Shown here in pieces: positions 1 through 13,581 of a stretch of DNA of 13,581 nt. The notes under the pieces were generated by a model that saw only the letters and a list, made by a program, of their open reading frames with translations, was not told where the DNA came from and searched no databases. Every line of letters begins with the position of its first letter. Within the stretch, counting starts at the first letter, position 1. This DNA is from an uncultured Curtobacterium sp. GTDB lineage: Bacteria; Actinomycetota; Actinomycetes; Actinomycetales; Microbacteriaceae. The position numbers and the translations under genes are program-made. The stretch is taken from positions 1-13,581 of the forward strand of contig CAJYIG010000085.1 of NCBI GenBank assembly GCA_913774725.1. The letters are read 5' to 3'.

Positions 1-654
1 CACGACCTCGACGTCGTGCACGCCCTCGCCGGTGCGTACACCAGCCGGGTCGTCGGGATGGGGTCGCTCTCCGTGTACGGCGACGTCACCGACCGGCGCG
101 ACCGCAGCGACGAGCTCATGACCGACTGGTTCTCGTTCGACAACTGGCCGCCCGCCGAGCAGACCGGCCTCAACCCCGTCGTCGACGTCGAGGACGTCTC
201 GATGGTGATGATGACGCTCGAGAACGGCGTGCAGGCGAGCTACGAGCAGTGCCACTTCACGCCCGACTACTGGCGGAACTACACCGTGATCGGAACCCAC
301 GGCCGCCTCGAGAACGTCGGGGACACCGGCGGCGGGGTCGTCAAGGTGTGGAACCGCCGCCGCAACTGGGACGTCGCCGGTGACGTCGAGTACCCGATCG
401 ACGGCGTCGAGGACGGCCACGCCGACGCCGACCTCCTCACCATGACCGAGTTCCTCCGCTCCGTCGCCCTCGGCGAGCCGACGACCCTGTCCCCGATCGC
501 GGCTCGCGCCGCGGTCGCCGCGGGAGCGCTCGCGACGCGTTCCCTGCGGAACGGCTCCGTCCCGCTCGACGTGCCGCCCCTCCCCGAAGCCACCATCCGT
601 CACTTCACGGCCGCAGCCGGCCACGACGACCCCTCCGGAAGGAACACCCGATGA
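1..654 (+). CDS. Gfo/Idh/MocA-family oxidoreductase, C-terminal part (5' truncated by window)
   Basis: The reading frame is open from base 1 and gives 217 residues before TGA. The N-terminal NAD(P)-binding Rossmann domain lies outside the window. The visible part starts at HDLD, matching the conserved His/Asp region of the C-terminal alpha/beta substrate domain of this family. It continues through a beta-sheet-rich stretch (VEDVSMVMMTLENGVQASYE, about residues 63-82) and IGTHGRLEN (about 93-101), which are typical of the family. These enzymes oxidise or reduce sugars and cyclitols in the cytoplasm using NAD(P). The stop overlaps the start of the binding-protein gene (ATGA, 651-654), so the two are probably translationally coupled and act on the same imported compound. 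The substrate cannot be deduced. The family is fairly certain; the exact enzyme is unknown. Confidence 0.88.
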   Translation, partial: HDLDVVHALAGAYTSRVVGMGSLSVYGDVTDRRDRSDELMTDWFSFDNWPPAEQTGLNPVVDVEDVSMVMMTLENGVQASYEQCHFTPDYWRNYTVIGTHGRLENVGDTGGGVVKVWNRRRNWDVAGDVEYPIDGVEDGHADADLLTMTEFLRSVALGEPTTLSPIAARAAVAAGALATRSLRNGSVPLDVPPLPEATIRHFTAAAGHDDPSGRNTR

Positions 655-1964
655 CCCTCCCCTCCCCCCGTCACGGCCGCGGTCGCAGCCGTGCCCTGCT
701 CGGTCTCGCTGCCGCGGTCAGCGCCGTCGCCCTCCTCGCGGGGTGCAGCAGCGCGTCGTCCGCCGGTTCCGACTCCGGGACGGGCACGGTCGCGAAGGAC
801 ACGAAGGCCGACCTGACCTACGCCGTCTGGGACCAGAACCAGGTCGACGCGATCAAGGCGAACATCAAGGGCTTCAACGAGGAGTACCCGGACATCCGGG
901 TCAACGTGGACGTGACGCCCTTCGCCAACTACTTCACGAAGCTGCAGACGCAGGGTTCCAGCAACACGCTGCCCGACCTGTTCTGGATGAACGGCCCGAA
1001 CTTCCAGCTCTACGCGGCCAACGGCAAGCTCGCGCCGATCACCGGCGCGGTGGAGTCGGGCGCGATCGATCCGTCGAAGTACTCGAAGGCGCTCGACGAC
1101 CTGTACACCTACGACGGGACGCAGTACGGCGTGCCGAAGGACTTCGACACCATCGGCGTCTGGGTGAACAAGGCGCTGTTCGAGAAGGCCGGCATGCCGC
1201 TGCCGTCGAAGGACTGGACCTGGCAGGACTTCCAGGACACCGCCGCCGAACTGTCGCAGAAGCTGAAGAGCGACGGCGCGTACGGCGCCGCCGGCGGCAT
1301 GGACGGCCAGACCACCTACTACGACACGATCTTCCAGGCCGGCGGGTCCGTGGTCGACGACGGGAAGTCGGAGTACGACACGAAGGCCGCGCAGGAGGGC
1401 ATCCGGTTCTGGACCGACCTGATCGGCTCCGGCGCTTCGCCGTCGATCAAGCAGCTGACCGACACCACGGCGGACCAGTGGTTCACCTCCGGCAAGCTCG
1501 CGATGTACCAGGGCGGGAGCTGGTTCCGGTCGGCGCTCATCGGCACCGACCTGGAGCAGGACGTCGTCGTCTACCCGCTGCCGAAGGGCAAGGAGCAGGC
1601 GACCGTGATCCACGGTGTCTCGAACGTCGTCGCCGAGGGGTCGAAGAACAAGGCGGCCGCCCAGGCGCTGCAGGCGTACCTGGCGAGCAAGCCGGCCCAG
1701 CAGCAGCAGGGTGACATGGGCGCGGTCATCCCGGCCTACGAGGGAACGCAGGACGCCTTCACGAAGACGATGCCCGACGCGGACCTGCAGGTCTTCCTCG
1801 ACGCGGTCGACTACGCGAAGCCGCTCCCGGTGTCGAAGAACACCGCCGCGTGGAACACCCTCGAGACGAACCTCCTGCCGAGCGCCTTCGACGGGTCGCG
1901 ACCCGTCGACCAGGTGACGGCGCAGCTGGCGGAGGAGATGGACGCCGCGCTCGCCAAGGAGTGA
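651..1964 (+). CDS. Carbohydrate ABC transporter substrate-binding lipoprotein (CUT1 type)
   Basis: A 437-residue extracellular solute-binding protein of the family-1 (MalE-like) class. A basic n-region and a hydrophobic stretch end in the lipobox LLAGC with the lipidated Cys at residue 32, followed by a Ser/Gly/Thr-rich linker. The mature part shows hallmarks of sugar-binding proteins: a DLTYAVWDQNQ start, LPDLFWMNG near 105, and the YGVPKDFDTIGVWVNKALFEKAGMP region near 160-180. The start ATG has GGAAGGA at 637-643, 7 nt upstream, and overlaps the preceding oxidoreductase stop. It sits outside the membrane and delivers sugar to the two permeases that follow after a 107-bp gap containing a hairpin. 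No ATPase gene is linked; actinobacterial CUT1 importers usually borrow a shared MsiK/UgpC-like ATPase. The ligand is unknown. Confidence 0.95.
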   Translation: MTLPSPRHGRGRSRALLGLAAAVSAVALLAGCSSASSAGSDSGTGTVAKDTKADLTYAVWDQNQVDAIKANIKGFNEEYPDIRVNVDVTPFANYFTKLQTQGSSNTLPDLFWMNGPNFQLYAANGKLAPITGAVESGAIDPSKYSKALDDLYTYDGTQYGVPKDFDTIGVWVNKALFEKAGMPLPSKDWTWQDFQDTAAELSQKLKSDGAYGAAGGMDGQTTYYDTIFQAGGSVVDDGKSEYDTKAAQEGIRFWTDLIGSGASPSIKQLTDTTADQWFTSGKLAMYQGGSWFRSALIGTDLEQDVVVYPLPKGKEQATVIHGVSNVVAEGSKNKAAAQALQAYLASKPAQQQQGDMGAVIPAYEGTQDAFTKTMPDADLQVFLDAVDYAKPLPVSKNTAAWNTLETNLLPSAFDGSRPVDQVTAQLAEEMDAALAKE

Positions 1965-1970
1965 CCGTCA

Positions 1971-2004
1971 CGCCGATCGGTGGGGTCCGCCCGGCCGATC
2001 GGCG
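1971..2004 (+). other. Intra-operon stem-loop between binding-protein and permease genes
   Basis: CGCCGATCGG at 1971-1980 and CCGATCGGCG at 1995-2004 form a perfect 10-bp inverted repeat around a 14-nt loop. Each arm contains the self-complementary octamer CCGATCGG, and the two octamers are 22 bp apart, about two helical turns. The stem starts 6 nt after the binding-protein stop codon. Known precedent (malE-malF and many importers) suggests an mRNA-stabilising or partial-termination hairpin that keeps binding protein in excess over permeases. A paired operator is the alternative. There is no T-tract. Confidence 0.6.
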
Positions 2005-2058
2005 CCGTCCGTCCCACCGGACACCCGCACCCGCACCCCTCGATCCGCCCGCCCGGCG

Positions 2059-2064
2059 TAGGAG
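2059..2064 (+). promoter_or_regulatory. Ribosome binding site that decides the first permease start
   Basis: TAGGAG lies 7 nt before the ATG at 2072. The frame is open further upstream (to 1850), but that part overlaps the binding-protein gene and encodes low-complexity Arg/Pro sequence. This site therefore fixes the start at 2072. Confidence 0.75.
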
Positions 2065-2071
2065 CGACCCG

Positions 2072-3025
2072 ATGACCACCACCACCCGGCAGACGAGGGC
2101 GACCCGCCCGCCGTCCCGACCCCACCACGACGAGCGGCCCAGGCCGATCCGCGCTCCCCGCACCGACGGCATCTGGCCGTGGCTGTTCGTGCTCCCGCTG
2201 CTGATCGGCGTCGGCACGTTCTTCATCTGGCCGATCCTGCAGACCTTCTGGTACTCGTTAACGAGCTGGGGTGTGTTCGGCGGCGCCACCTTCACCGGGC
2301 TCGCGAACTACACCCGCCTGCTGTCCGATCCGCAGCTGTACCAGTCGCTCGTCAACACGATCGTCTACACGGTGATCGTCCTGCTCGGCATCCCGATCGC
2401 GGTCTGGCTCGCGAGCCTGCTCAACACCCCGGGGCTGCGGTTCGCCCAGTTCTACCGGGTGCTCTTCTTCCTGCCCTACGTGGCGATGCCCGCCGCGATC
2501 GCCCTGGTCTGGCGCATCATGTTCAACGGCGACTTCGGCATCGTGAACTGGTTCCTCGGACGCTTCGGCATCGACGGCCCGTACTGGATCTCGACCCCGG
2601 GCTTCGCGCTCGTCGCGGTGTCGCTCGTCGGCCTGTGGTCCTCGCTCGGCTTCTCGATGATCATCCTCGGCGCGGGGCTCAAGGACATCCCGCCCGAGCT
2701 GTACGAGGCCGCCGAGCTCGACGGCGCGAGCCGCTGGCGCCAGTTCCGCTCGCTCACCGTGCCGCTGCTGACGCCGAGCATCTTCTTCGTGCTCGTGGTC
2801 ACCACGATCTCGAGCTTCCAGCTGTTCGACCTGCTCTACGCCATCCTCGGCTCCACCAACCCGGTCATCCCGAAGACGATGTCGCTCGTCTTCTACTTCT
2901 ACAACGCCGGGTTCATCGACAACGACAAGGGCTTCGCGGCTGCGATCGCGATGGTGATCTTCGTGCTCATCGGCATCATCACCGTCGTGCAGTTCCGGGT
3001 CCAGCGGAAGTGGGTCCAGTCATGA
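2072..3025 (+). CDS. Sugar ABC transporter permease 1 (MalF-like, CUT1)
   Basis: A 317-residue inner-membrane permease. A basic, Pro-rich cytoplasmic N-terminus of about 33 residues precedes the first membrane segment (WPWLFVLPLLIGVGTFFIW, about 35-53). Further hydrophobic segments follow near 93-117, 127-150, 178-200, 235-258 and 288-308, giving the six-helix core. The EAA loop that docks on the ATPase is clear: YEAAELDGASRWRQF at about 211-225, then VPLLTPSI. It pairs with the next gene, which overlaps it by ATGA (3022-3025), to form the channel for the binding protein upstream. One oddity is a TTA leucine codon at 2258-2260 (Leu63) inside a 12-bp perfect palindrome; TTA is very rare in DNA this G+C-rich. 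Confidence 0.95.
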   Translation: MTTTTRQTRATRPPSRPHHDERPRPIRAPRTDGIWPWLFVLPLLIGVGTFFIWPILQTFWYSLTSWGVFGGATFTGLANYTRLLSDPQLYQSLVNTIVYTVIVLLGIPIAVWLASLLNTPGLRFAQFYRVLFFLPYVAMPAAIALVWRIMFNGDFGIVNWFLGRFGIDGPYWISTPGFALVAVSLVGLWSSLGFSMIILGAGLKDIPPELYEAAELDGASRWRQFRSLTVPLLTPSIFFVLVVTTISSFQLFDLLYAILGSTNPVIPKTMSLVFYFYNAGFIDNDKGFAAAIAMVIFVLIGIITVVQFRVQRKWVQS

Positions 3026-3930
3026 CCGGCACCATCGACGCACGCGGCAGCAGGGTCGCGGCCGCCACGAGGGCGGCAGATCGCACCCGCGCGCAGACCG
3101 CGGCTCGTCCCGGTCGCCGCGGCGGCAGTCACTGGTGGATCCACGTGGTGCTCGGCATCGGCGGGTTCGTCATGGCGTTCCCGTTCCTGTGGCAGATCGT
3201 GATGGCGCTGTCCACGAACGCGCAGGTCACCTCGCCGACTCCGACCTTCTGGCCGGGCGAGCTGCAGTGGGGGAACTTCGCCCGGGTCTTCGAGCGGCTC
3301 CCCTTCCTCGACCAGCTGGCGACCTCGATCTGGGTGACCCTGATCCGCACCCTGGCGCAGATCGTGCTGTGCACCCTGGCGGGCTACGCGTTCGCCCGCA
3401 TGCGGTTCCGCGGACGCGCGGTCATCCTCGGCATCGTGCTGTCGATCCTGCTGGTGCCGTCGCAGGTCTACCTCATCTCGCAGTACCAGATCGTGCAGGG
3501 CCTCGGGTGGCTGGACACCCTGGCCGGCATCGTCGCGCCCGGGCTGTTCAGCGCGTTCGGCACGTTCCTGATGCGGACGGCGTTCCTGAACATGCCCGCC
3601 GAACTCGAGGAAGCCGCACGCATGGACGGCGCGAACCCCTTCCAGACCTTCTGGCGGATCATGCTGCCGCTCGCGCGCCCGTCGATCAGCGTGCTCGCGA
3701 TCACGACGGTGCTCTGGTCGTGGAACGAGCTGCTCTGGCCGCTGGTGGTGTCCACCCGTGCAGAGGACATGCCGCTCGCCGCCGGGCTCGCGACGCTCTC
3801 CAGCGACCGCACCATCGACTACCCGCTGCTCATGGCGGCGAGCCTGATGGCGATGGCACCCGTCCTGGTCCTGTTCATCGTGCTGCAGCGGCGGGTGATC
3901 GACGGACTCGCGTCCTCCGGCCTGAAGTGA
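3022..3930 (+). CDS. Sugar ABC transporter permease 2 (MalG-like, CUT1)
   Basis: A 302-residue permease whose ATG overlaps the stop of permease 1. A charged N-terminus of about 36 residues precedes the first helix (WWIHVVLGIGGFVMAFPFLWQIVMAL, about 38-63). Other segments lie near 103-123, 134-153, 166-186, 221-241 and 268-288. The EAA loop is present: ELEEAARMDGANPFQTF at about 194-210, followed by MLPLARPS. The C-terminal ending DGLASSGLK is the usual end of MalG-type CUT1 permeases. It is the last gene of the left operon, and a strong hairpin begins 25 nt after its stop. The substrate is unknown but must match that of the linked binding protein and probably that of the oxidoreductase. Confidence 0.95.
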   Translation: MTGTIDARGSRVAAATRAADRTRAQTAARPGRRGGSHWWIHVVLGIGGFVMAFPFLWQIVMALSTNAQVTSPTPTFWPGELQWGNFARVFERLPFLDQLATSIWVTLIRTLAQIVLCTLAGYAFARMRFRGRAVILGIVLSILLVPSQVYLISQYQIVQGLGWLDTLAGIVAPGLFSAFGTFLMRTAFLNMPAELEEAARMDGANPFQTFWRIMLPLARPSISVLAITTVLWSWNELLWPLVVSTRAEDMPLAAGLATLSSDRTIDYPLLMAASLMAMAPVLVLFIVLQRRVIDGLASSGLK

Positions 3931-4168: not shown

Positions 4169-5071
4169 TCAGCCCTTCAGGCCGGCCGACGCCATCGTCG
4201 CGACGAACTGCTTCTGCGCCACCAGGAACAGCAGGATGAGCGGCAGGGTCGCGACCACGTTGCCGGCCATCAGCAGCGACCAGTCGGTCCGGCGCGCCCC
4301 CTGGAAGTTGGTCAGACCGAGCTGCAGGGTGAACGAGTCCGCGTCGTTGATCGCGACGAGCGGCCAGACCAGGTCGTTCCATGACCCGAGCAGGGTGAAG
4401 ATCGCGAGCGTCGCGAGCGCCGGACGCGCGAGCGGCAGGACGATCCGGAAGAAGACCTGCAGGCGGGTGCAGCCGTCGATCTGACCGGCCTCCTCGAGCT
4501 CGGCGGGCAGGGACAGGAAGAACTGCCGCATCAGGAAGATGCCGAACGCGGACGCGAGCCAGGGCACGATCGCCGCACCGAGGCTGTCCACGAGGTGCAG
4601 CCGAGCGAACATCACGTAGGTCGGGATCATCAGGAGCTGCGAGGGGATCATGATCGTTGCGAGGATCGCCAGGAACCCGAACGTCCGGCCAGGGAACCGC
4701 AGCCGCGCGAAGCCGTAGCCGGCCAGCGAGCAGAGGACGAGGTGCGAGACGATCGCCGACGCGGACACGATGACCGTGTTGAGGAGCCAGTGCAGGATGT
4801 CCGACTCCGCGAACAGGCGCGTGTAGCCCGACAGGGTGAACTGCGTCGGCAGGAACGACGGCGGGAACCTGTTGATCTCCGACGCCGGCTCGAGCGAGGT
4901 GAGGAACATCTCGACGAACGGCAGCAGGAACAGGAGCGCCACCGGGGCCAGCAGGAGGTGCCACGGGCTGAACGGCAACCGGCGTCGGCGACGGGGCGCG
5001 GTGCGCGCGGCGGGAGCCGCGACGGCGGCCGACCGGTTCGGGGTCTCGAGTACGCGGGTCTCGACGGTCAT
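4169..5071 (-). CDS. Sugar ABC transporter permease 2 (MalG-like) of the alpha-galactoside operon
   Basis: A 300-residue permease. The frame is open far upstream, but the ATG at 5071 follows AAGGAAGG (5086-5079) by 7 nt and overlaps the stop of the preceding permease (ATGA), so this start is chosen. A basic N-terminus (RTAPRRRRRLPFSPWH) precedes the first helix at about 37-60. Other segments lie near 95-120, 132-153, 162-183, 217-240 and 265-285. The EAA loop is ELEEAGQIDGCTRLQVFF (about 191-208) then LPLARPA; Gly replaces the second Ala of EAA, a mild variant. The C-terminus ATMASAGLKG is typical for the family. It is the last gene of the GH4-binding protein-permease-permease operon. The likely cargo is an alpha-galactoside, inferred only from the GH4 neighbour. 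Confidence 0.95.
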   Translation of the reverse strand: MTVETRVLETPNRSAAVAAPAARTAPRRRRRLPFSPWHLLLAPVALLFLLPFVEMFLTSLEPASEINRFPPSFLPTQFTLSGYTRLFAESDILHWLLNTVIVSASAIVSHLVLCSLAGYGFARLRFPGRTFGFLAILATIMIPSQLLMIPTYVMFARLHLVDSLGAAIVPWLASAFGIFLMRQFFLSLPAELEEAGQIDGCTRLQVFFRIVLPLARPALATLAIFTLLGSWNDLVWPLVAINDADSFTLQLGLTNFQGARRTDWSLLMAGNVVATLPLILLFLVAQKQFVATMASAGLKG

Positions 5072-6018
5072 CGTGACGCCTTCCTTCCGGCTCGGCGCTG
5101 CACGACCGTGACGATCACGGTCGCGGTGAGGGTGACGAAGAACATGCCGTAGGCGATGGCCGACCCGTAGCCGAACTGCAGGTTCTGGAAGGCCGTCTTC
5201 CACAGGTAGTAGACGATCGTCTGTGTGGCGTCGAGCGGTCCGCCTCGGGTGGTCGCGTAGACGAGGTCGAAGAGCTGCACGGCCTGCAGGGTCTGGTAGA
5301 TCCCGACGAACGCCGTGACCGGTGCCAGCTGTGGCCACACCACGCGCCAGAACGTCTGCCAGTTGTTCGCACCGTCGATGCGCGCTGCCTCGAGCACGTC
5401 GCCCGGGACGTCCTGCAGCGCTGCGAGGTAGATGACGGTCGTGAAGGCCGCCTGCCCCCACAGGGACATGATGACGATCACCACCATCGCCTCGGAGCGG
5501 TCCTCGAGCCAGCCCTGCGGCGGGACGTGCAGCACGCGGAGGACGTTGTTGACGACGCCGAACTGCGGGCTGAACAGGTAGGTGGTCAGGATGCCGGTCG
5601 CGGCGGCGGACGCCACGAACGGCACGAAGATCGCCGTTCGGTACAGCCCGATGAACCGGATGCGTCGGTTCAGGGCGACGGCCAGGGCGAGCCCGAGCAG
5701 CAGGGACGCGGGGACGAACAGCACCGTGTACAGCAGGGTGTGCACGGCAGCCGCGAGCGCACTCGCGTCGGTCGCCAGGTCCTGGTAGTTCTCGATGCCG
5801 GCGAACGACGGCGGGCTGAAGCCGTCCCAACGCTGGAACGAGAGCACGAGCGCCCAGACGCCGGGGAAGATCGTGAGGCCGAGCACGACCGCCAGGGCCG
5901 GGGCGACGAAGCCCCAGCCGGCGAGGCCCTCGCGGGCGGCTGCGGGCCGGCGTCGGCGCCCGGGTCGCGGCGCCTCGGTGTCGGTGGTCGGACGGGTGCG
6001 GAGTGCGGGAGTGGTCAC
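5068..6018 (-). CDS. Sugar ABC transporter permease 1 (MalF-like) of the alpha-galactoside operon
   Basis: A 316-residue permease starting at GTG (6018). Its ribosome site AGGAGG (6029-6024), 5 nt upstream, overlaps the TAG stop of the binding-protein gene. The N-terminus is Arg/Pro-rich (RPGRRRRP). The first helix is at about 33-60 (GWGFVAPALAVVLGLTIFPG) and others fall near 91-116, 127-148, 177-200, 233-255 and 284-307. The EAA loop reads LEAARIDGANNWQTFWRVVWPQLAP at about 209-233. In the second half, QAVQLFDLVYATTRGGP matches the conserved MalF-type region. Its stop overlaps the next permease start by 4 bp. It forms the channel together with that permease, and no ATPase is encoded nearby. 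Confidence 0.95.
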   Translation of the reverse strand: MTTPALRTRPTTDTEAPRPGRRRRPAAAREGLAGWGFVAPALAVVLGLTIFPGVWALVLSFQRWDGFSPPSFAGIENYQDLATDASALAAAVHTLLYTVLFVPASLLLGLALAVALNRRIRFIGLYRTAIFVPFVASAAATGILTTYLFSPQFGVVNNVLRVLHVPPQGWLEDRSEAMVVIVIMSLWGQAAFTTVIYLAALQDVPGDVLEAARIDGANNWQTFWRVVWPQLAPVTAFVGIYQTLQAVQLFDLVYATTRGGPLDATQTIVYYLWKTAFQNLQFGYGSAIAYGMFFVTLTATVIVTVVQRRAGRKASR

Positions 6019-6027
6019 GGGGGCCTC

Positions 6028-7374
6028 CTAGCCCTGACGCAGTGCCTTGTCGGCGGCGACGGTCGCCTGCCGGAGCGCCTCGGCCGGTTCGCCCTCGCCC
6101 TGCAGCACGCGGGACACCGCGTCGCCGAAGGCCTCGGACAGGCCGTTGTAGCCGGGCAGGGTCGGACGGACCTGCTTCGCGTTCGCGGAGTTCGCCTGGA
6201 TGACGTCGAGTCCGGGCAGGGCTGCGACCTGCTTCCGGAAGGCCGGGCTGTCGGCCTCGCTCGACCGCAGCGGCAGGTTGCCGACCGCGACGTTGAACCG
6301 TTCGTCCTGCTCGGGCGCGGTCAGCCACTTCGTGAAGTCCTTCGCCCAGTACGCGCGGTTCACGTCGTGGTTGTCGAACAGGGTCCAGAGGTCGGGTCCG
6401 GACACCGTCTGGTGGTCGCCGTCCGTCCCCGGGAGCCGCACGACGCCGTACGACGTCCCGGCGGTCTTCAGGGCGGAGAGCTCCCACGGGCCGGAGGTGA
6501 TCATGCCGACGCGGTCGCTCTCGAACAGCTGCGCGAACTTGGTGTCCGTCTGGTCGAGGTAGACGCTCCGGTCGGTGACGGCCATGGACCGCATGAACGA
6601 CAGGGCGTCGACGCCGGCCGCCGAGTCGAACGCAGCGTGCTCGCCGTCCTCGGACAGGATCGAGCCGCCGTTCTGCCAGAGGTGCGGCCACATCTGCCAG
6701 GTGGTCTCCTCGCTGCCGGACACCGAGTAGCCGTAGCCGAAGGTCTGGCTGTCCCGGTCCGTCAAGGCCTTCGCGGCGCGACGGAAGTCCGACCAGTCCC
6801 AGTCCGCCGTCGGGTACGGCTCGCCGGCGGCGTCGAAGACCGTCTTGTTGTAGAAGAGCGAGATGTTGTCGACGACCGCGGGGAAGCCGATCACCTTCCG
6901 CCCGGTCGGCTGCGCGGTCCCGCGGGCCGCCGGGGAGAACTCGTCCCAGTGGGTGTCCGGGTCCTCGGCCTCGGCGCGCAGGTCGAGCGTCCGTCCGGAG
7001 CGCTCGAGCTGGCTCGCCCAGGACCCGAAGGTGTACGAGATGTCGGGTGAGTCGTTCCCGGCGAACGAGGCCGCGAGCTTCTGGAGCAGCTCGTCGGTCG
7101 ACGACGCCCCGGAGGACATGTCGATCGTCACGTTCGGGTGTGCGTCCTCGTACTCGTCGACGAGCCCCTGCAGGAGCTTCGCCGCCTCGTCGCTCTGGCC
7201 CGACCACATGGTGAGGCGGACGGGCGCCGCGGTGTCGAGGACGGTGGCACCCTGCGGGGCGCAGCCGGTGAGGACCGTGGCGGCGACCGCGATCGCGACG
7301 GCGAGCGCCGTGCGGGCGGTGCGGCGTCGGGCGGTGCGGGTGCTGCTGCTGGCGCGTGTCCTGGTGCGTGTCAC
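6028..7374 (-). CDS. Carbohydrate ABC transporter substrate-binding lipoprotein (CUT1), probable alpha-galactoside binder
   Basis: A 448-residue family-1 solute-binding protein. The GTG start at 7374 has AAGGAG (7386-7381) 6 nt upstream. A long Thr/Arg-rich n-region (TRTRTRASSSTRTARRRTART) leads into a hydrophobic core and the lipobox VLTGC with Cys at residue 38. The mature domain has LTMWSGQSDEAAKLLQGLVDEYEDAHPNV, the PDISYTFGSW region, and VIGFPAVVDNISLFYNKTVFDAAGEPYP, which is characteristic of sugar binders. It follows the GH4 gene by 47 bp and precedes permease 1 by 9 bp. This order suggests that it captures the oligosaccharide which the cytoplasmic GH4 enzyme then splits. It is only distantly similar to the left-arm binding protein, so the two importers probably have different ligands. 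Confidence 0.95.
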   Translation of the reverse strand: MTRTRTRASSSTRTARRRTARTALAVAIAVAATVLTGCAPQGATVLDTAAPVRLTMWSGQSDEAAKLLQGLVDEYEDAHPNVTIDMSSGASSTDELLQKLAASFAGNDSPDISYTFGSWASQLERSGRTLDLRAEAEDPDTHWDEFSPAARGTAQPTGRKVIGFPAVVDNISLFYNKTVFDAAGEPYPTADWDWSDFRRAAKALTDRDSQTFGYGYSVSGSEETTWQMWPHLWQNGGSILSEDGEHAAFDSAAGVDALSFMRSMAVTDRSVYLDQTDTKFAQLFESDRVGMITSGPWELSALKTAGTSYGVVRLPGTDGDHQTVSGPDLWTLFDNHDVNRAYWAKDFTKWLTAPEQDERFNVAVGNLPLRSSEADSPAFRKQVAALPGLDVIQANSANAKQVRPTLPGYNGLSEAFGDAVSRVLQGEGEPAEALRQATVAADKALRQG

Positions 7375-7421: not shown

Positions 7422-8738
7422 TCAGATCCCGCGAGCGGGGATCGTCGCGCGCAGCGGTTCCGGAAGCAGGTCACCGTGCGCGACCACGAGGTCGTTGCAC
7501 AGCTCCCAGATCTGCTCGGGCGTGAGCGTCGAGGACGCGTTCGGGTCCATGAGCACCGCCTGCCGGACCGCGACGGGGTCACCGGTCCGCGCGGCGTGCA
7601 CCGTGAGCTCGTTCACGGAGATGTACGGCCGGTTCAGCGCCGCGGCCTGCACGGGGAGCGCACCCATCGGGATCGGTGCGATGCCGCCGGCGCCGACCGT
7701 GGTCGGGACCTCGACGACGCACCCGTCCGGCAGGTTGTCGATCAGCCCGGCGTTGGACACGTTCGCGTGGATCTCGCGCTCGGTACCGGTCACCAGTGAG
7801 TGGATGACCTGCGGGGCGTACTCCGATGCGCCCTCCTCGAGCTGCACGGGCCGACCGGCCGCCAGGTCACGCTCGGCCGCCTCGAACTCCGCGACGTTGT
7901 CCTCGGAGATGCCGATGTACTCGAGCGGACGCAGGCGGAACCGGTCGACCTGTTCCGGCGAGCGGAGGAACCACGACAGGTACTCGGACGAGTGCTCGCT
8001 CGTCTCCGTCGGGTAGAAGCCGATCCGCTTGAACATCTCCACCCGGACCCGGCGTTCGAGTTCGGGGTCCTGCCGGATGCGCTCGCGGAGCCGGGGGTAG
8101 AGGTCCTCGCCCTCGTGCGTCCACTCGAGCAGCCACGACTGGTGGTTGACGCCCGCCGCGCGGAACCGGGTCTGCTCGACGTCGAGGCCGACGAGCTCGG
8201 CGAGGTCGTGCGCCGTCCAGTAGACGCTGTGGCAGAGCCCGAGCGCGGTGATGTCCGGCGCGACGGTGTTCGCCCACCAGATGTTCATCGCCATCGGGTT
8301 CGTGTAGTTGAGCAGGACCGCGTCCGGGGCGACCTCGCGCATGTCCGCGGTCAGCTCGGTGAGGAACGGGAAGGTCCGGAGCGCCCGGAACACGCCGCCG
8401 ACACCGGTGGTGTCGCCGATCGTCTGGTGCAGGCCGTACCGCTCCGGGATCTCGAGGTCGGTCCGGGTCGCCGCGATCCCGCCGATCTGCACCATGTCGA
8501 CGACGAAGTCGGCGTCGGCCAGGGCACGACGGCGGTCGGTCGTCGCGGTGACGGTGACCGGACGCCCGAGGCGCTCGCTCACCTGGCGGGCGGTGGCCTC
8601 GGCGACGGCGAGGCGACGCTCGTCGACGTCGAACAGCCGGAGGTCCAGGTCGGGGAGGTCGTCGTAGCGCAGCAGGTCGGCGAGCAGCTGTCGGGTGAAG
8701 ACGACGCTGCCGGCGCCGACGAACACGATGCGGGTCAC
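7422..8738 (-). CDS. melA: GH4 alpha-galactosidase (MelA-type, NAD+/Mn2+-dependent)
   Basis: A 438-residue enzyme, close to the E. coli MelA length (about 450). Family 4 hydrolases split the glycosidic bond in the cytoplasm by a redox-elimination route using NAD+ and a divalent metal. The NAD-binding motif VGAGSVVF is at 7-14. Further family marks are YGLHQTIGDTTGVGGVFRALRT (101-122), NYTNPMAMN (144-152), the metal-ligand motif CHSV (169-172), AGVNHQ with the second metal His (195-200), TSEHSSEY (246-253) and DGLIDNLP-like AGLIDNLPDGC (330-340). CHSV and overall similarity to MelA favour alpha-galactosidase over the 6-phospho-glucosidase or alpha-glucuronidase branches. There is no signal peptide. 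The start is GTG at 8738. It is first in its operon and feeds from the linked importer. Confidence 0.93.
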   Translation of the reverse strand: MTRIVFVGAGSVVFTRQLLADLLRYDDLPDLDLRLFDVDERRLAVAEATARQVSERLGRPVTVTATTDRRRALADADFVVDMVQIGGIAATRTDLEIPERYGLHQTIGDTTGVGGVFRALRTFPFLTELTADMREVAPDAVLLNYTNPMAMNIWWANTVAPDITALGLCHSVYWTAHDLAELVGLDVEQTRFRAAGVNHQSWLLEWTHEGEDLYPRLRERIRQDPELERRVRVEMFKRIGFYPTETSEHSSEYLSWFLRSPEQVDRFRLRPLEYIGISEDNVAEFEAAERDLAAGRPVQLEEGASEYAPQVIHSLVTGTEREIHANVSNAGLIDNLPDGCVVEVPTTVGAGGIAPIPMGALPVQAAALNRPYISVNELTVHAARTGDPVAVRQAVLMDPNASSTLTPEQIWELCNDLVVAHGDLLPEPLRATIPARGI

Positions 8739-8962: not shown

Positions 8963-9751
8963 TCAGGCGATGAGGACCTCGACCCCCGCCGCGGCGATCT
9001 GCTCAAGCGCCTCCCGTGGGGCGTGCTCGTCGGTCACCAGGACGGACACGTCCCCGATGTCGGCCATCCGTGCCATCGTCTGCCGTCCGACCTTCGACCC
9101 GTCGCACACGACGACCACCCGGTCAGCGTGCGTCACCATCACGCCGTTCGTCCGCGCCTCGGTGTCGTCGTGCGTCGTGACGCCGCCGGCGGCGCTGATG
9201 CCGTCGGTGCCGAGGAAGGCCGTCGTCACCTTGAACGCGGAGAACGCCGCCTCGGCCAGGGGTCCGACCGCCTCGAGCGAGGTCGCGCGGAGCGTCCCAC
9301 CGGTCAGGATCGTCTTCACCCGGGGGCTGCGCGAGACCTCCAGCGCGATCGTGACGGCGTTCGTGATCACGGTGAGGCCGTTCCGGTCGCCGAGTGCCCG
9401 GACGACCTCCATCGTCGTGGTCCCGCCGCTGACCGCGACGGCCTGGCGTCCGGACGGCAGGAGTCGTGCGGCGAGCCGACCGACCGCGCGCTTGGCGGCG
9501 TCGGCCTCGGACGCCCGCATCACGACCGGCAACTCGGGGAGCACGCCGACGGCCTCGACCCGGCCGTAGCTGCGACGGACGAGTCCACGCGCCTCGAGCT
9601 CGCTGAGGTCGCGCCGGACCGTGGCCGCGGAGACACCGCAGGCGCGGATGAGCTCGTCCGTCGTCGTCGAGCCCTGCTCGCGCACCCGCTCGAGGATGTC
9701 CCGCATGCGGTCCCGCCGCTTGCGGCCGACGTCCGGAGAGTCGTTGTCCAT
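8963..9751 (-). CDS. DeoR-family transcriptional regulator of the sugar island
   Basis: A 262-residue protein from the ATG at 9751. The N-terminal DeoR helix-turn-helix covers about 14-65: RRDRMRDILERVREQG, then TTTDELIRACGVSAATVRRDLSELEARGLVRRSYG. The C-terminal DeoRC effector domain has VSGGTTTMEVVRAL (107-120), TGGTLR (150-155), GTDGIS (181-186) and CDGSK (216-220), the sugar-phosphate-binding fold typical of these repressors. A longer form from ATG 9778 (271 aa) is possible but its start codon lies inside the proposed operator half-site (9770-9777 and adjacent) and has no ribosome site, so the shorter form is preferred. It is divergent from the gatZ operon and upstream of the GH4 operon on the same strand. 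The effector is probably a sugar phosphate such as tagatose-6-phosphate (inference). Confidence 0.93.
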   Translation of the reverse strand: MDNDSPDVGRKRRDRMRDILERVREQGSTTTDELIRACGVSAATVRRDLSELEARGLVRRSYGRVEAVGVLPELPVVMRASEADAAKRAVGRLAARLLPSGRQAVAVSGGTTTMEVVRALGDRNGLTVITNAVTIALEVSRSPRVKTILTGGTLRATSLEAVGPLAEAAFSAFKVTTAFLGTDGISAAGGVTTHDDTEARTNGVMVTHADRVVVVCDGSKVGRQTMARMADIGDVSVLVTDEHAPREALEQIAAAGVEVLIA

Positions 9752-9769
9752 GGACCCATCATGCGCCAG

Positions 9770-9826
9770 AACGATCATTGCGAATGACCGGAGTGATCGT
9801 TACGGCAGCGGAACTGATCGGTCGTT
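9770..9826. promoter_or_regulatory. Probable operator cluster of the DeoR-type regulator in the divergent gap
   Basis: AACGATCA (9770-9777) and TGATCGTT (9794-9801) are a perfect 8-bp inverted repeat with a 16-bp spacer. A similar direct half-site, TGACCG, is at 9785-9790, and TGATCGGTCGTT is at 9815-9826. The TGA steps are 9 and 21 bp, so sites fall partly on the same helical face. The cluster lies just upstream of the repressor start (9751) and upstream of gatZ (9910), the expected place for a repressor controlling both. No clear -35/-10 pair could be assigned on either strand. Confidence 0.6.
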
Positions 9827-9909: not shown

Positions 9910-11238
9910 GTGAACCCCATCACTGCGCTCGTCGCTCGCCACCGTGCCGGATCCGGTGAGGGCATGTACTCGGTCTGCTCGGCGAACCCCTACGTGCTGC
10001 GGGCCTCGATGCGCCAGGCGCTCGAGGACGACGCACCGCTGCTCGTCGAGGCGACCTCGAACCAGGTCGACCAGTTCGGCGGCTACACCGGCATGACGCC
10101 CGCGGCCTTCCGCGCGGCGGTGCTCGACCTCGCCAGTGCTGAAGGCTTCCCGGCCGACCGGTTGATCCTCGGCGGGGACCACCTCGGCCCGAACACGTGG
10201 CAGGACCGCCCGGCCGACGAGGCCATGCCGCTCGCCGTCGACCTCGTCCGCGCCTACGTCGCTGCCGGCTACACGAAGATCCACCTCGACTGCAGCATGC
10301 CGCTGCAGGGCGAGACCGCTCCGCTGACCGACGCCGTCGTCGCCGAGCGGGCCGCGGTGCTGCTCGCCGCCGCGGAGTCCGCCGCCACCGACGCCGGGAT
10401 CGACCGCGACGGCATCGTCTACGTCATCGGCACCGAGGTCCCGACCCCCGGCGGGGCGAAGGAGACGCTGCACGACCTCGTGCCGACCCCGGCGACGGCG
10501 GCGGTCGGCACGCTCGACGTGCACCGCGCCGCGTTCGCGCGCGCCGGGCTCGCCGACGTCTGGCCGCGCGTCGTCGCCCTCGTCGTGCAGCCCGCTGTGG
10601 AGTTCGACCACCTGCAGGTCATCGACTACGTCCCCGAGGCCACGGCCGCCCTGCAGGAGGTCATCGAGGCGACGCCCGGGCTCGTGTACGAGGCGCACTC
10701 GACCGACTACCAGACGCCCGAGGCGCTCCGTGCCCTGGTCGACGACCACTGGGCGGTGCTCAAGGTCGGTCCCGGCCTGACCTTCGGGCTCCGCGAGGCA
10801 CTGTTCGCCCTCGACGCCCTCGAGTCGGAGCTCGTGCCGGACGGCACCGCGACCGACCTGCGCGGCGTCGTCGAGCGCCGCATGCTCGCGGAGCCGGGTC
10901 GGTGGGAGCGCTACTACGAGGGCGACGAGCACGAGCAGCGCATCGCCCGCACCTACAGCTACAGCGACCGCATGCGCTACTACTGGCCGGACCCGGAGAT
11001 CACCGCCGCGACCGAGGCGCTCCTGCGGAGCCTCGACGAGGTCGGCCTCCCGCTGCCCCTGCTGAGCCAGCACCTGCCCCTGCAGTACGAGCGGGTCCGC
11101 GAGGGCCTGCTGCCGAACCGCGCCGAGGACATCGTGCTCGACCGGGTCCGCGACGTCCTGCGCCCGTACTCCGCAGCCGTCGCCCCGCGCGAGCGTGTCG
11201 ACGCGGCCGCCACCACCACCAGCAAGGAGTCCCTGTGA
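9910..11238 (+). CDS. GatZ/KbaZ-family protein (tagatose-bisphosphate aldolase subunit or tagatose-6-phosphate 4-epimerase)
   Basis: A 442-residue protein, slightly longer than E. coli GatZ/KbaZ (about 420). The N-terminus MNPITALVARHRAG...GMYSVCSANPYVL matches KbaZ closely. Conserved blocks are LLVEATSNQVDQFGGYTGM (44-62), LILGGDHLGPNTW (85-97), KIHLDCSM (123-130), IGTEVPTPGGA (173-183), YEAHSTDYQTP (260-270) and LKVGPGLTFGLREALFAL (284-301), a TIM-barrel fold with conserved His and Asp likely to bind metal. In E. coli this family is the non-catalytic partner of the GatY/KbaY aldolase. A family member in Agrobacterium has been described as a D-tagatose-6-phosphate 4-epimerase. No GatY-like gene is visible here, so the epimerase role is attractive. 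Its stop overlaps the agaS start (GTGA). Family membership is sure; the reaction is open. Confidence 0.92.
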   Translation: MNPITALVARHRAGSGEGMYSVCSANPYVLRASMRQALEDDAPLLVEATSNQVDQFGGYTGMTPAAFRAAVLDLASAEGFPADRLILGGDHLGPNTWQDRPADEAMPLAVDLVRAYVAAGYTKIHLDCSMPLQGETAPLTDAVVAERAAVLLAAAESAATDAGIDRDGIVYVIGTEVPTPGGAKETLHDLVPTPATAAVGTLDVHRAAFARAGLADVWPRVVALVVQPAVEFDHLQVIDYVPEATAALQEVIEATPGLVYEAHSTDYQTPEALRALVDDHWAVLKVGPGLTFGLREALFALDALESELVPDGTATDLRGVVERRMLAEPGRWERYYEGDEHEQRIARTYSYSDRMRYYWPDPEITAATEALLRSLDEVGLPLPLLSQHLPLQYERVREGLLPNRAEDIVLDRVRDVLRPYSAAVAPRERVDAAATTTSKESL

Positions 11239-12368
11239 CCACGACCGCCCCCGTCCGCGCCGACGAGACCGCGACCCACCGCGAGATCCTGCAGCAGCCG
11301 GAGAGCTGGCAGCGCCTCGTGGCGTCGCTCGACGACCGCCGTGCCGCGCTCGACGCCTTCCTGCAGCCGCTGCTCGCCAACCCGGACCTGCGCATCGTGC
11401 TCACCGGGGCCGGCACCTCGGCGTTCGTCGGGGACATCGCGAGCGTCGACCTGCGCCGGCACCTCGGCCGTCGCGTCGAGTCGATCGCCACGACCGACGT
11501 CGTCGCGGACCCGCACGGCTCGCTCGGCGAGGCGGGCCGGGTGCTCCTGGTCTCCTTCGCCCGCTCGGGCAACAGCCCGGAGAGCGTCGCGGCGACCCGC
11601 GTCGTCGACGACGTCGCACCCGGCGCGCACCACCTGGTCGTCACCTGCGACCCCGCCGGCGCCCTCGCCCGCGAGCACCGCGGGCAGGACCGGTCCTTCG
11701 TCCTCGACATGCCGGCCGAGACGAACGACACCGGCTTCGCCATGACGTCGAGCTTCTCCACGATGCTGCTGGCCGTGCTCCTGGCCTTCCGGCCGGAGCT
11801 CGCGTCCGGCACCGGCGCGCTGGTCGCGGCGGCACGGTCGATCGCCGGCCTGGAGGCTCGGATCGCGTCGCTCGCGGAGGGCACCGAACGCGTCGTCTAC
11901 CTGGGCAGCGGTGCGCTGCAGGGCCTGGCCCGCGAGTCCGCACTGAAGCTGCTCGAGCTCACCGCCGGCGAGGTCGTGTCGTTCTTCGACACCCCGCTCG
12001 GCTTCCGGCACGGGCCGAAGGCCGTCGCGGGTGCGCACACCCTGGTGGTCGTCTACGGCTCGTCCGACCCGTACACGGCGCGGTACGACGCGGACATCCT
12101 CCGCGAGCTCCGCGGGGACGGGGCCGTCCGGGTCGTCTCGGTCGGCTGCGACGCAGACGACGAGCGTTCCTTCCCGCTCGACGACCTGGCGGGTCTCGAC
12201 GACGCACTCCGCAGCGTGGCCCTGGTCGGCTTCGCGCAGCTCCTGGCGCTCGCCACGTCGGTCGCGCACGGGTGCACGCCGGACAACCCGTTCCCGGGCG
12301 GTTCGGTCAACCGCGTCGTGCAGGGCGTGACCATCCACGACCACCGCGACGGAGCCGCACGGCCATGA
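11235..12368 (+). CDS. agaS: AgaS-type SIS-domain sugar-phosphate deaminase/isomerase (galactosamine-6-phosphate)
   Basis: A 377-residue protein with two SIS sugar-phosphate-binding domains, very like E. coli AgaS along its length. SIS-1 shows IVLTGAGTSAFVGDI (54-68) and SFARSGNSPESVAA (107-120). The PAETNDTGFAMTSSFSTM block (160-177) follows. SIS-2 has VYLGSGALQGLARESALKLLELTAGE (221-246), FFDTPLGFRHGPK (250-262) and the C-terminal NRVVQGVTIH (359-368). AgaS converts galactosamine-6-phosphate to tagatose-6-phosphate plus ammonia in the cytoplasm. The start is GTG at 11235, with AAGGAG at 11224-11229. It overlaps both neighbours by 4 bp, indicating strict co-translation with the GatZ protein and the kinase. 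Alternative: action on another amino- or keto-sugar phosphate; the deaminase/isomerase class is secure. Confidence 0.93.
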   Translation: MTTTAPVRADETATHREILQQPESWQRLVASLDDRRAALDAFLQPLLANPDLRIVLTGAGTSAFVGDIASVDLRRHLGRRVESIATTDVVADPHGSLGEAGRVLLVSFARSGNSPESVAATRVVDDVAPGAHHLVVTCDPAGALAREHRGQDRSFVLDMPAETNDTGFAMTSSFSTMLLAVLLAFRPELASGTGALVAAARSIAGLEARIASLAEGTERVVYLGSGALQGLARESALKLLELTAGEVVSFFDTPLGFRHGPKAVAGAHTLVVVYGSSDPYTARYDADILRELRGDGAVRVVSVGCDADDERSFPLDDLAGLDDALRSVALVGFAQLLALATSVAHGCTPDNPFPGGSVNRVVQGVTIHDHRDGAARP

Positions 12369-13342
12369 CCGTCTTCCTCGGCATGGACGGCGGCGGCACC
12401 AAGACCGCGTTCCTGCTCACCGACGGCGAGGGCACCACGCTCGCCGAGTCGCGCCAGCCGACCTGTTCCTGGTTCGACGCCGGCACCGGACTCGTCGGCG
12501 ACGTCGTCCGGGCGGGCGTCGACGCGGTGACGGCGGCGGCCGTCATCACCCCGGCGGACATCACCTCCGCGTACTTCGGCATCCCCGGACACGGGGAGTC
12601 GAGTCGGGACACCCCCGTGCTCGACGCCCTCCCCGCCGCGGTGCTCGGACACGACCGGTACTCCTGCGGCAACGACATGCTCGGCGGCTGGGCCGGCTCC
12701 CTGGCCGGTCGGGACGGCGTGAACGTCATCGCCGGCACCGGTTCGATGGCCTACGGCGAGCGCGGCGGCACCGCCCACCGCGTCGGCGGCTGGAGCGAGG
12801 TCTTCGGCGACGAGGGCTCCGCGTACTGGGTCGCCGTGCAGGGGCTCAACGCGTTCTCGCGGATGGCGGACGGCCGGCTCCCCCGGGGCCCGCTGCACGC
12901 CCTCGTGCGTGAGCGGGTCGGGGTGACCGAGGACCTCGACCTGATCGGCCTCGTCCCCGGCGTCGGCGGCCGCGACGACCACCTTCGCCAGGTCGGCGAC
13001 CGTGCCGCCGACGCCGGGGACGAGGCCGCTGCCGACGTGCTGCACCGCGCCGCGACCGAACTCACCACCCTCGTCGTCACGACCGTCCGTGCGCTCGGCT
13101 TCCCCGCGGACGAGCCCGTACCCGTGTCTTACTCGGGCGGGCTCTTCCGGGCGCCGCGGCTCCGCGATGAGTTCGCCGCCGCCCTGCACGCGCAGGACGC
13201 GGCCCTCGAGCTCGTCGAGCCCCGCCACGACCCGACCGTCGGCAGCGTCCTGGTCGCGATGCGTCGGGCCGGGGCACCGATCCCCGAGCGGTTCGCGGCG
13301 GACGTGCTCGCGGCGACCAGCTCCAGCGCCGCCGCACGCTGA
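12365..13342 (+). CDS. BadF/BadG/BcrA/BcrD-type ATPase, probable amino-sugar (GlcNAc/GalNAc-type) kinase
   Basis: A 325-residue member of the ASKHA (actin/hexokinase) fold, in the branch that includes N-acetylglucosamine kinases. The phosphate-1 motif MDGGGTKTAF is at 7-16, YSCGNDMLGGWAGS with a likely catalytic Asp at 99-112, the phosphate-2 motif VIAGTGSMAYG at 121-131, GGWSEVFGDEGSAYWV at 141-156, and the adenosine-region motif VSYSGGLFR at 254-262. It would phosphorylate a free sugar, most likely an amino sugar, to the 6-phosphate for AgaS. This is needed because sugars enter by ABC transport rather than a PTS. The ATG at 12365 overlaps the agaS stop (ATGA). GalNAc, galactosamine and GlcNAc cannot be told apart from the sequence. 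A 46-bp gap follows before the GH36 gene. Confidence 0.88.
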   Translation: MTVFLGMDGGGTKTAFLLTDGEGTTLAESRQPTCSWFDAGTGLVGDVVRAGVDAVTAAAVITPADITSAYFGIPGHGESSRDTPVLDALPAAVLGHDRYSCGNDMLGGWAGSLAGRDGVNVIAGTGSMAYGERGGTAHRVGGWSEVFGDEGSAYWVAVQGLNAFSRMADGRLPRGPLHALVRERVGVTEDLDLIGLVPGVGGRDDHLRQVGDRAADAGDEAAADVLHRAATELTTLVVTTVRALGFPADEPVPVSYSGGLFRAPRLRDEFAAALHAQDAALELVEPRHDPTVGSVLVAMRRAGAPIPERFAADVLAATSSSAAAR

Positions 13343-13388: not shown

Positions 13389-13581
13389 TTGCAGTTCACG
13401 TTCGAGTTCGACGGCCTCCGGGTCCCCGCGAACGTCTCCGGAGCACCCCGTCGAACGGCGGACGGGTGGATCGTCCCGGCGGGTCCCGTCGCGCTGCTCC
13501 ACCCGTTCGGTGCCGCAGCCGAGTTCTACCGGCACGGCTGGAACTCGTGGAGCCCGAGCGGGTGGACGCGTGTCGACGGCG
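13389..13581 (+). CDS. GH36-type alpha-galactosidase, N-terminal fragment (3' truncated by window)
   Basis: The frame is open from TTG 13389 to the window end, giving 64 complete codons. The fragment is part of the N-terminal beta-sandwich domain. It contains AAEFYRHGWNSWSPSGWTRVDG (about 43-64), which fits the conserved WQSW-type motif (here HGWNSWSP) of family 36 alpha-galactosidases that comes before the catalytic barrel. The catalytic Asp residues are outside the window. There is no signal peptide at the visible start, so the enzyme is probably cytoplasmic. It follows the kinase by 46 bp on the same strand and is probably in the same operon. It would be a second alpha-galactosidase of unrelated fold next to the GH4 enzyme. 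Acting on GalNAc-terminated or other substrates is possible. Confidence 0.75.
   Translation, partial: MQFTFEFDGLRVPANVSGAPRRTADGWIVPAGPVALLHPFGAAAEFYRHGWNSWSPSGWTRVDG

Follow-up and report, generated by a model that had tools for sequence, protein, structure and literature searches.

The window analysed here, a stretch of 13,581 nucleotides (nt) from an uncultured Curtobacterium sp., spans an entire contig, the contig end being position 13581. It carries three overlapping genes that encode a GatZ/KbaZ-family protein, an AgaS-like protein and a BadF-type sugar kinase. The best explanation of this operon, which we regard as very likely correct, is a pathway in which the kinase, AgaS and GatZ, the last acting as an epimerase, lead from an amino sugar to fructose-6-phosphate. 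The predicted epimerase role draws support from the literature on the family (PMC11907403), from the conserved active site and from the finding that six of the eight near-complete Curtobacterium genomes with GatZ have a single class II aldolase. The genes are as follows.

9910..11238, plus strand: GatZ/KbaZ-family protein, proposed D-tagatose-6-phosphate 4-epimerase (442 amino acids (aa); PF08013, TIGR02810).
11235..12368, plus strand: AgaS-like SIS-domain protein, putative galactosamine-6-phosphate deaminase/isomerase (377 aa; TIGR02815 below cut-off, PDB 3c3j).
12365..13342, plus strand: BadF/NagK-type sugar kinase, proposed galactosamine (or N-acetylgalactosamine, GalNAc) 6-kinase (325 aa; PF01869).

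The kinase would phosphorylate galactosamine to galactosamine-6-phosphate. AgaS, judged from its family, would deaminate and isomerise this to tagatose-6-phosphate, and GatZ would epimerise it at carbon 4 to fructose-6-phosphate, an activity reported in family members. The chemistry of the last step would be a metal-dependent retro-aldol/aldol reaction, as proposed by modelling in PMC11907403. Carbon would thus enter glycolysis without a tagatose-6-phosphate kinase or a tagatose-bisphosphate aldolase. The overlaps of 4 bp claimed in the preliminary description are present, with the sequences GTGA at 11235-11238 (gatZ/agaS) and ATGA at 12365-12368 (agaS/kinase), but these are two overlaps joining three genes, and the interval 9910-12368 holds GatZ and AgaS only, the kinase extending to 13342.

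The gatZ gene starts with GTG at 9910, has AGGAGA upstream and stops at 11236-11238, and its GC content by codon position is 0.76/0.48/0.96. The protein matches PF08013 with 602.4 bits (E 5e-181, cut-off 26.7) and TIGR02810 with 610.4 bits (cut-off 568.8), and stays below the equivalog cut-offs of the KbaZ model (597.5 vs 707) and the GatZ model (490.5 vs 579). It is 55% identical to Escherichia coli KbaZ and 49% to E. coli GatZ, and matches the solved structure 2fiq with E 1.2e-123.

According to a 2025 paper, the GatZ and KbaZ proteins of E. coli convert fructose-6-phosphate to tagatose-6-phosphate in vivo (PMC11907403). Tagatose production was restored by gatZ or kbaZ and not by fbaA, gatY or kbaY, and a gatY kbaY deletion strain still formed tagatose with gatZ or kbaZ. 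The mechanism derived there from models has a zinc ion liganded by H88, H257 and E171 and assigns the role of base to D87; C20, E44 and K279 are proposed, likewise from models, as marks of the family. All seven of these residues are kept in the window GatZ (C23, E47, D90, H91, E176, H263 and K285), and in all 91 aligned rows. The same paper cites tagatose-6-phosphate epimerases of Agrobacterium and Sinorhizobium, the former as the tagatose-6-phosphate 4-epimerase described in 2015 from the galactitol pathway of Agrobacterium tumefaciens (Wichelecki et al.). Reviews draw the aga pathway with a tagatose-6-phosphate kinase and a tagatose-bisphosphate aldolase, via tagatose-1,6-bisphosphate (PMC12118421, PMC5583593). 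A 2025 review reports AgaZ as the tagatose-6-phosphate kinase, citing Leyn et al. 2012 (PMC12118421), and PDB 2fiq and 3txv both bear the molecule name tagatose 6-phosphate kinase, at odds with the epimerase activity reported. That GatZ is itself this kinase is nevertheless highly improbable, given that members of the family are reported to epimerise carbon 4 and are described as related to class II aldolases (PMC11907403), and that PF08013 is the only Pfam family matching the window protein at E 0.001.

The presence in the window of a GatZ-type gene and AgaS without a GatY/KbaY aldolase or a tagatose-6-phosphate kinase, as first described, was borne out by tblastn and hidden Markov model (HMM) scans. 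KbaY, GatY, FbaA, PfkB, FruK and PsuK had no match on the window (tblastn, E 1e-8), and neither a class II aldolase nor a PfkB-kinase domain was found among the window open reading frames (ORFs) scanned with HMMs, which are a part of the total. The window being the entire contig, this absence is weak evidence by itself. The assembly measures 2.5 Mb in 411 contigs and is 73% complete, and the contig stops at 13581; relatives were therefore tested. Five genomes of the same genus have a near-identical cluster, with GatZ identities of 89-96%. The preliminary description had named a gatY/kbaY gene plus kinase just downstream as the arrangement that would contradict it, and tblastn gave no match to an aldolase or a PfkB-type kinase in these five over roughly 9 kb on each flank of gatZ, nor a LacC/1-phosphofructokinase (1-PFK) kinase linked to the operon over that distance; the queries were a few E. 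coli and Curtobacterium proteins, with which distant PfkB-type members could be missed. All five show a GH36 (glycoside hydrolase family 36) gene nearby. It is thus improbable that the missing aldolase and kinase exist in the strain itself on unsequenced DNA, an explanation favoured by the incomplete assembly and by the second class II aldolases found elsewhere in two congeners, G051 and G024.

PF08013 is present in 9 of the 66 genomes of the genus, eight of the nine being near-complete. Six of these eight have a single class II aldolase and the other two have two, so that six have no second enzyme to serve as a KbaY/GatY partner. The single class II aldolase of one of them (G023) scored as glycolytic and shares about 29% identity with KbaY and GatY; for the other five single-aldolase congeners the assignment used match length and score alone. 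The additional aldolase of G051 is 92% identical to the one in G005, and that of G024 is 78% identical to the one in G012. G005 and G012 lack GatZ, and the additional enzymes are therefore not tied to it; the one in G024 has a 1-PFK-type kinase beside it. Aldolases of the DeoC/LacD family (PF01791) gave exactly one hit in all nine GatZ genomes of the genus, the one in G023 scoring as a deoxyribose-phosphate aldolase.

Kinases of the 1-PFK/LacC subfamily score over the cut-off in 6 of the 9 genomes. The exceptions are G043 and G044, which were counted as one case because their GatZ proteins are almost the same, and G000, which has a 1-PFK-type kinase fragment at a contig end. In G043 and G044 GatZ lies about 7 kb from AgaS and the kinase, on the opposite strand of the same cluster. 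The 1-PFK-subfamily kinase of G023 is probably FruK, because its two neighbours are a DeoR gene and, on the opposite flank, a phosphotransferase system (PTS) gene. PfkB-family kinases are found elsewhere in most of these genomes. Of 13 further genomes, 11 have a 1-PFK-subfamily kinase that scores above the cut-off. The claim of a missing tagatose-6-phosphate kinase holds near gatZ, yet proves little, since no such kinase is annotated in the E. coli aga region either, PfkB being named for the step in PMC11907403, and PfkB-family kinases occur elsewhere in the genomes. A missing LacC was accordingly dropped as general evidence and kept for G043 and G044 only.

Several points weigh against the epimerase pathway. 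The window's own genome, which has seven PfkB-family hits, lacks even a glycolytic class II aldolase, and its absences therefore mean little. Weak PfkB-superfamily hits (19-43 bits, compared with the LacC/FruK-subfamily cut-off of 216 bits) occur at distances of about 14-33 kb from gatZ in four of the five congeners with a near-identical cluster (G023, G039, G040 and G051). Species that have KbaY show the seven active-site residues unchanged as well, so that these do not separate epimerase-only from dual or helper use. The AgaS protein scores 449.7 bits against TIGR02815, below the cut-off of 529.2. No deacetylase was recognised in the window, leaving the use of GalNAc unsupported. In PMC11907403 the epimerase activity in E. 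coli is called low, and earlier work is cited in which overexpression of gatZ raises tagatose-bisphosphate aldolase activity and PfkB phosphorylates tagatose-6-phosphate in E. coli; GatZ may therefore act as a helper. Among 43 related loci, 22 encode a class II aldolase no more than 10 kb from GatZ, mainly in Streptomycetaceae and Mycolicibacterium, and in such loci the route could be classical. Likewise, 40 of 53 GatZ genomes have at least two class II aldolases and 13 have at most one.

A rival explanation is a classical route run with borrowed enzymes, in which a general phosphofructokinase would act on tagatose-6-phosphate and the glycolytic class II aldolase, helped by GatZ, would cleave tagatose-1,6-bisphosphate. 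TIGR02810 is annotated as a non-catalytic aldolase subunit, which agrees with such a role, as do the effect of gatZ on aldolase activity, the FruK-type kinases of six genus genomes, the common PfkB-family genes and the E. coli aga region without an annotated kinase. We consider this route unlikely, however, in view of the six congeners without a second class II aldolase, the low identity of the G023 glycolytic enzyme to KbaY and GatY, and the tagatose formed by E. coli GatZ and KbaZ without gatY and kbaY (PMC11907403).

AgaS is full-length with a SIS domain, is 45% identical to E. coli AgaS and has PDB 3c3j as its best structural match (E 3e-94); the next NCBIfam model after TIGR02815 scores 61.4 bits. 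It is named AgaS-like, the cut-off being missed, and may have the function of AgaS, which converts galactosamine-6-phosphate to tagatose-6-phosphate (PMC12118421). The kinase scores 136.7 bits against PF01869 (cut-off 31.5) and 56.8 bits against the NagK equivalog (cut-off 370). It has PDB matches to hexokinase and N-acetylglucosamine (GlcNAc)/N-acetylmuramic acid kinase, and is distant from characterised GlcNAc kinases.

The 43 related loci comprise the window, eight loci of the genus and 34 of 80 other loci, with 44 proteobacterial loci and two duplicates (L055, L065) excluded. In addition to the aldolase, genes found within 10 kb of GatZ are AgaS (42 loci), the kinase (38), an EamA transporter (25), GH4 (20), GH36 (6) and NagA (1). 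Flanks are short in several loci (e.g. L043, L047, L079, L089, L105, L117), where an absence within 10 kb makes the count a lower bound. The aldolase is 3' of EamA in all ten named Streptomycetaceae loci. Of twelve Mycolicibacterium/Mycobacterium loci, eight have it just before GatZ, one has it about 1 kb off and three have none within 10 kb (L078, L088, L109). These three were rejected as aldolase-free cases, their genomes holding other short class II aldolases, which in two of them, G481 and G487, are about 2 kb from a 1-PFK-type kinase. Class II aldolases beside the cassette in Streptomyces and Mycolicibacterium form a subgroup with no kinase match near it; four of the subgroup (L048:13554-14402, L052:8066-8953, L044:239-1084 and L036) are 51-57% identical to each other and 31-37% identical to KbaY/GatY.

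The 13 genomes with at most one class II aldolase are six Curtobacterium, G000, an Actinomadura, a Cellulomonas metagenome-assembled genome (MAG), a Rubrobacteraceae MAG, a Chromobacterium, a Salinicola and G083. None was found in the genomes of Salinicola, G083 and G000, although in MAGs and in genomes without stated completeness, Salinicola included, genes may be missing by chance. The survey covered 53 of 54 genomes, L043 being left out, and aldolase types were separated by match length, except for those scored individually. The cassette is also present in Salinicola. In Chromobacterium, GatZ and AgaS occur together with NagA and without the BadF-type kinase. G083 is a different case, as its locus (L161) has a more divergent GatZ (505 bits) with a PfkB kinase and a GH4 gene adjoining.

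A tree of GatZ proteins, made by a quick method with the Shimodaira-Hasegawa-like approximate likelihood ratio test (SH-aLRT) as the only support and with the duplicates L055 and L065 included, places the window within a supported set of eight Microbacteriaceae rows. There are three distinct GatZ lineages in Curtobacterium, a pattern that would fit a cassette moving between species. To account for the aldolase label over 89 labelled rows, 10 changes are required, at a cut of 7.5 kb between gene middles and with unequal flanks; L044, L067 and L090 are labelled "none", their aldolase genes lying beyond that cut. The tree's only members with known epimerase activity are GatZ and KbaZ of E. coli, sequences from Agrobacterium, Sinorhizobium and Caldilinea not being included. 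The Agrobacterium tagatose-6-phosphate 4-epimerase is presumably a member of the GatZ family. In an even sample of the class the cassette is rare, with GatZ in 7 of 394 genomes, including one weak partial hit and the window's own.

The other features of the window are as follows.

13390..13581, plus strand: first part of a melibiase-like glycosidase (GH36), truncated where the contig ends (identity to L022:5619-7121).
8963..9778, minus strand: DeoR-family regulator, AgaR-like, divergent from gatZ (PF00455, PF08220).
9765..9806, no strand: inverted repeat over the DeoR start, a possible operator (two 18-nt arms, 78% complementary).
7422..8738, minus strand: GH4 glycosidase, alpha-galactosidase-like (PF02056, PF11975; NF011657).
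4169..7374, minus strand: ATP-binding cassette (ABC) sugar importer, with a binding protein at 6028-7374 (ORF only) and permeases at 5068-6018 and about 4169-5071.
651..3930, plus strand: second ABC sugar importer, a binding protein and two permeases (PF01547, PF00528).

The divergent DeoR protein, which has AgaR as its best NCBIfam model (185.3 bits, cut-off 260), probably regulates the operon. The inverted repeat is conserved only among near-identical relatives and is therefore a weak candidate for the operator. The 64 aa of the GH36 start match no Pfam model on their own and are 91% identical to L022:5619-7121, itself a PF02065 protein that matches PDB 6lcj with E 1e-103. The GH36 protein of a relative matches the GH36 galactosaminidase 9awt weakly (E 7.7e-6), compared with E 1.2e-103 for an alpha-galactosidase. 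The GH4 protein scores 547.2 bits against NF011657 (cut-off 486), and 20 of the 43 loci, the window among them, carry a GH4 gene at most 10 kb from GatZ; its substrate might be an alpha-galactosaminide, an activity that GH4 is not known to have. The permeases of the importer at 4169..7374 have UgpA/UgpE-like matches below cut-off, and those at 651..3930 have matches that are likewise below cut-off.

Free galactosamine is the more likely substrate than GalNAc, unless a distant NagA serves, since the window has no recognised deacetylase and NagA is near GatZ in only one of the 43 loci, a count made in the loci with no genome-wide NagA search. That the GH4, GH36 and ABC genes supply sugar from alpha-linked galactosaminides or galactosides is speculative. 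In Microbacterium oleivorans a gene for a GH114 endo-alpha-1,4-polygalactosaminidase (L044:7245-8753) is divergent from gatZ-agaS-kinase-EamA, which suggests polygalactosamine or fungal galactosaminogalactan as the food source at that locus. PF03537 (GH114) is present in 30 of 51 GatZ genomes. As a general clue to the substrate it was set aside, because GH114 is carried by 62 of the 66 genomes of the genus (54 of the 57 that lack GatZ, 8 of the 9 that have it); most of its weight is therefore lost and only the Microbacterium neighbourhood remains. In 25 of the 43 loci an EamA-family transporter of about 320 aa is found 3' of the kinase (L111:12435-13400, L044, L025, L026, L078, L121 and others). 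It is a possible amino-sugar permease, and has no match in the window.

The epimerase activity is already known. The aldolase-free galactosamine route looks new, no proposal of it being met in the literature searched, in which most subscription papers were not covered. If GatZ is an epimerase, three genes suffice, with carbon entering at fructose-6-phosphate and nitrogen as ammonia, and the label of a non-catalytic subunit hides an enzyme. Bacteria with the kinase, AgaS and GatZ alone would be counted as incomplete when pathways are scored by the published scheme. The relatives poor in aldolases are natural cases that separate GatZ from its supposed aldolase partner. More tentatively, and with the balance of probability against it, epimerisation of tagatose-6-phosphate by GatZ/KbaZ could be a general and perhaps the original exit of bacterial galactosamine catabolism; the textbook scheme, which ends in tagatose-1,6-bisphosphate, would then fall short even in bacteria that have KbaY, and the aldolase-subunit label would be wrong in kind.

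The window operon resembles the E. coli GatZ/KbaZ systems in the protein family, in the active-site residues and in the E. coli arrangement of kbaZ, which is divergent from agaR and clustered with agaS. It differs in that the E. coli cluster has kbaY and PTS genes, whereas the window has the kinase and ABC importers and no aldolase match. With the galactitol pathway of A. tumefaciens, as cited in PMC11907403, it would share the last step, from tagatose-6-phosphate to fructose-6-phosphate, but the tagatose-6-phosphate comes from galactitol there and is proposed to come from galactosamine-6-phosphate via AgaS here. The amino-sugar phosphate and the AgaS step are common to the classical GalNAc/galactosamine (aga) pathway as it is drawn in PMC12118421 and PMC5583593. 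No tagatose-6-phosphate kinase or tagatose-bisphosphate aldolase was found in the window operon, and in contrast to the classical pathway its product would leave as fructose-6-phosphate rather than as triose phosphates.

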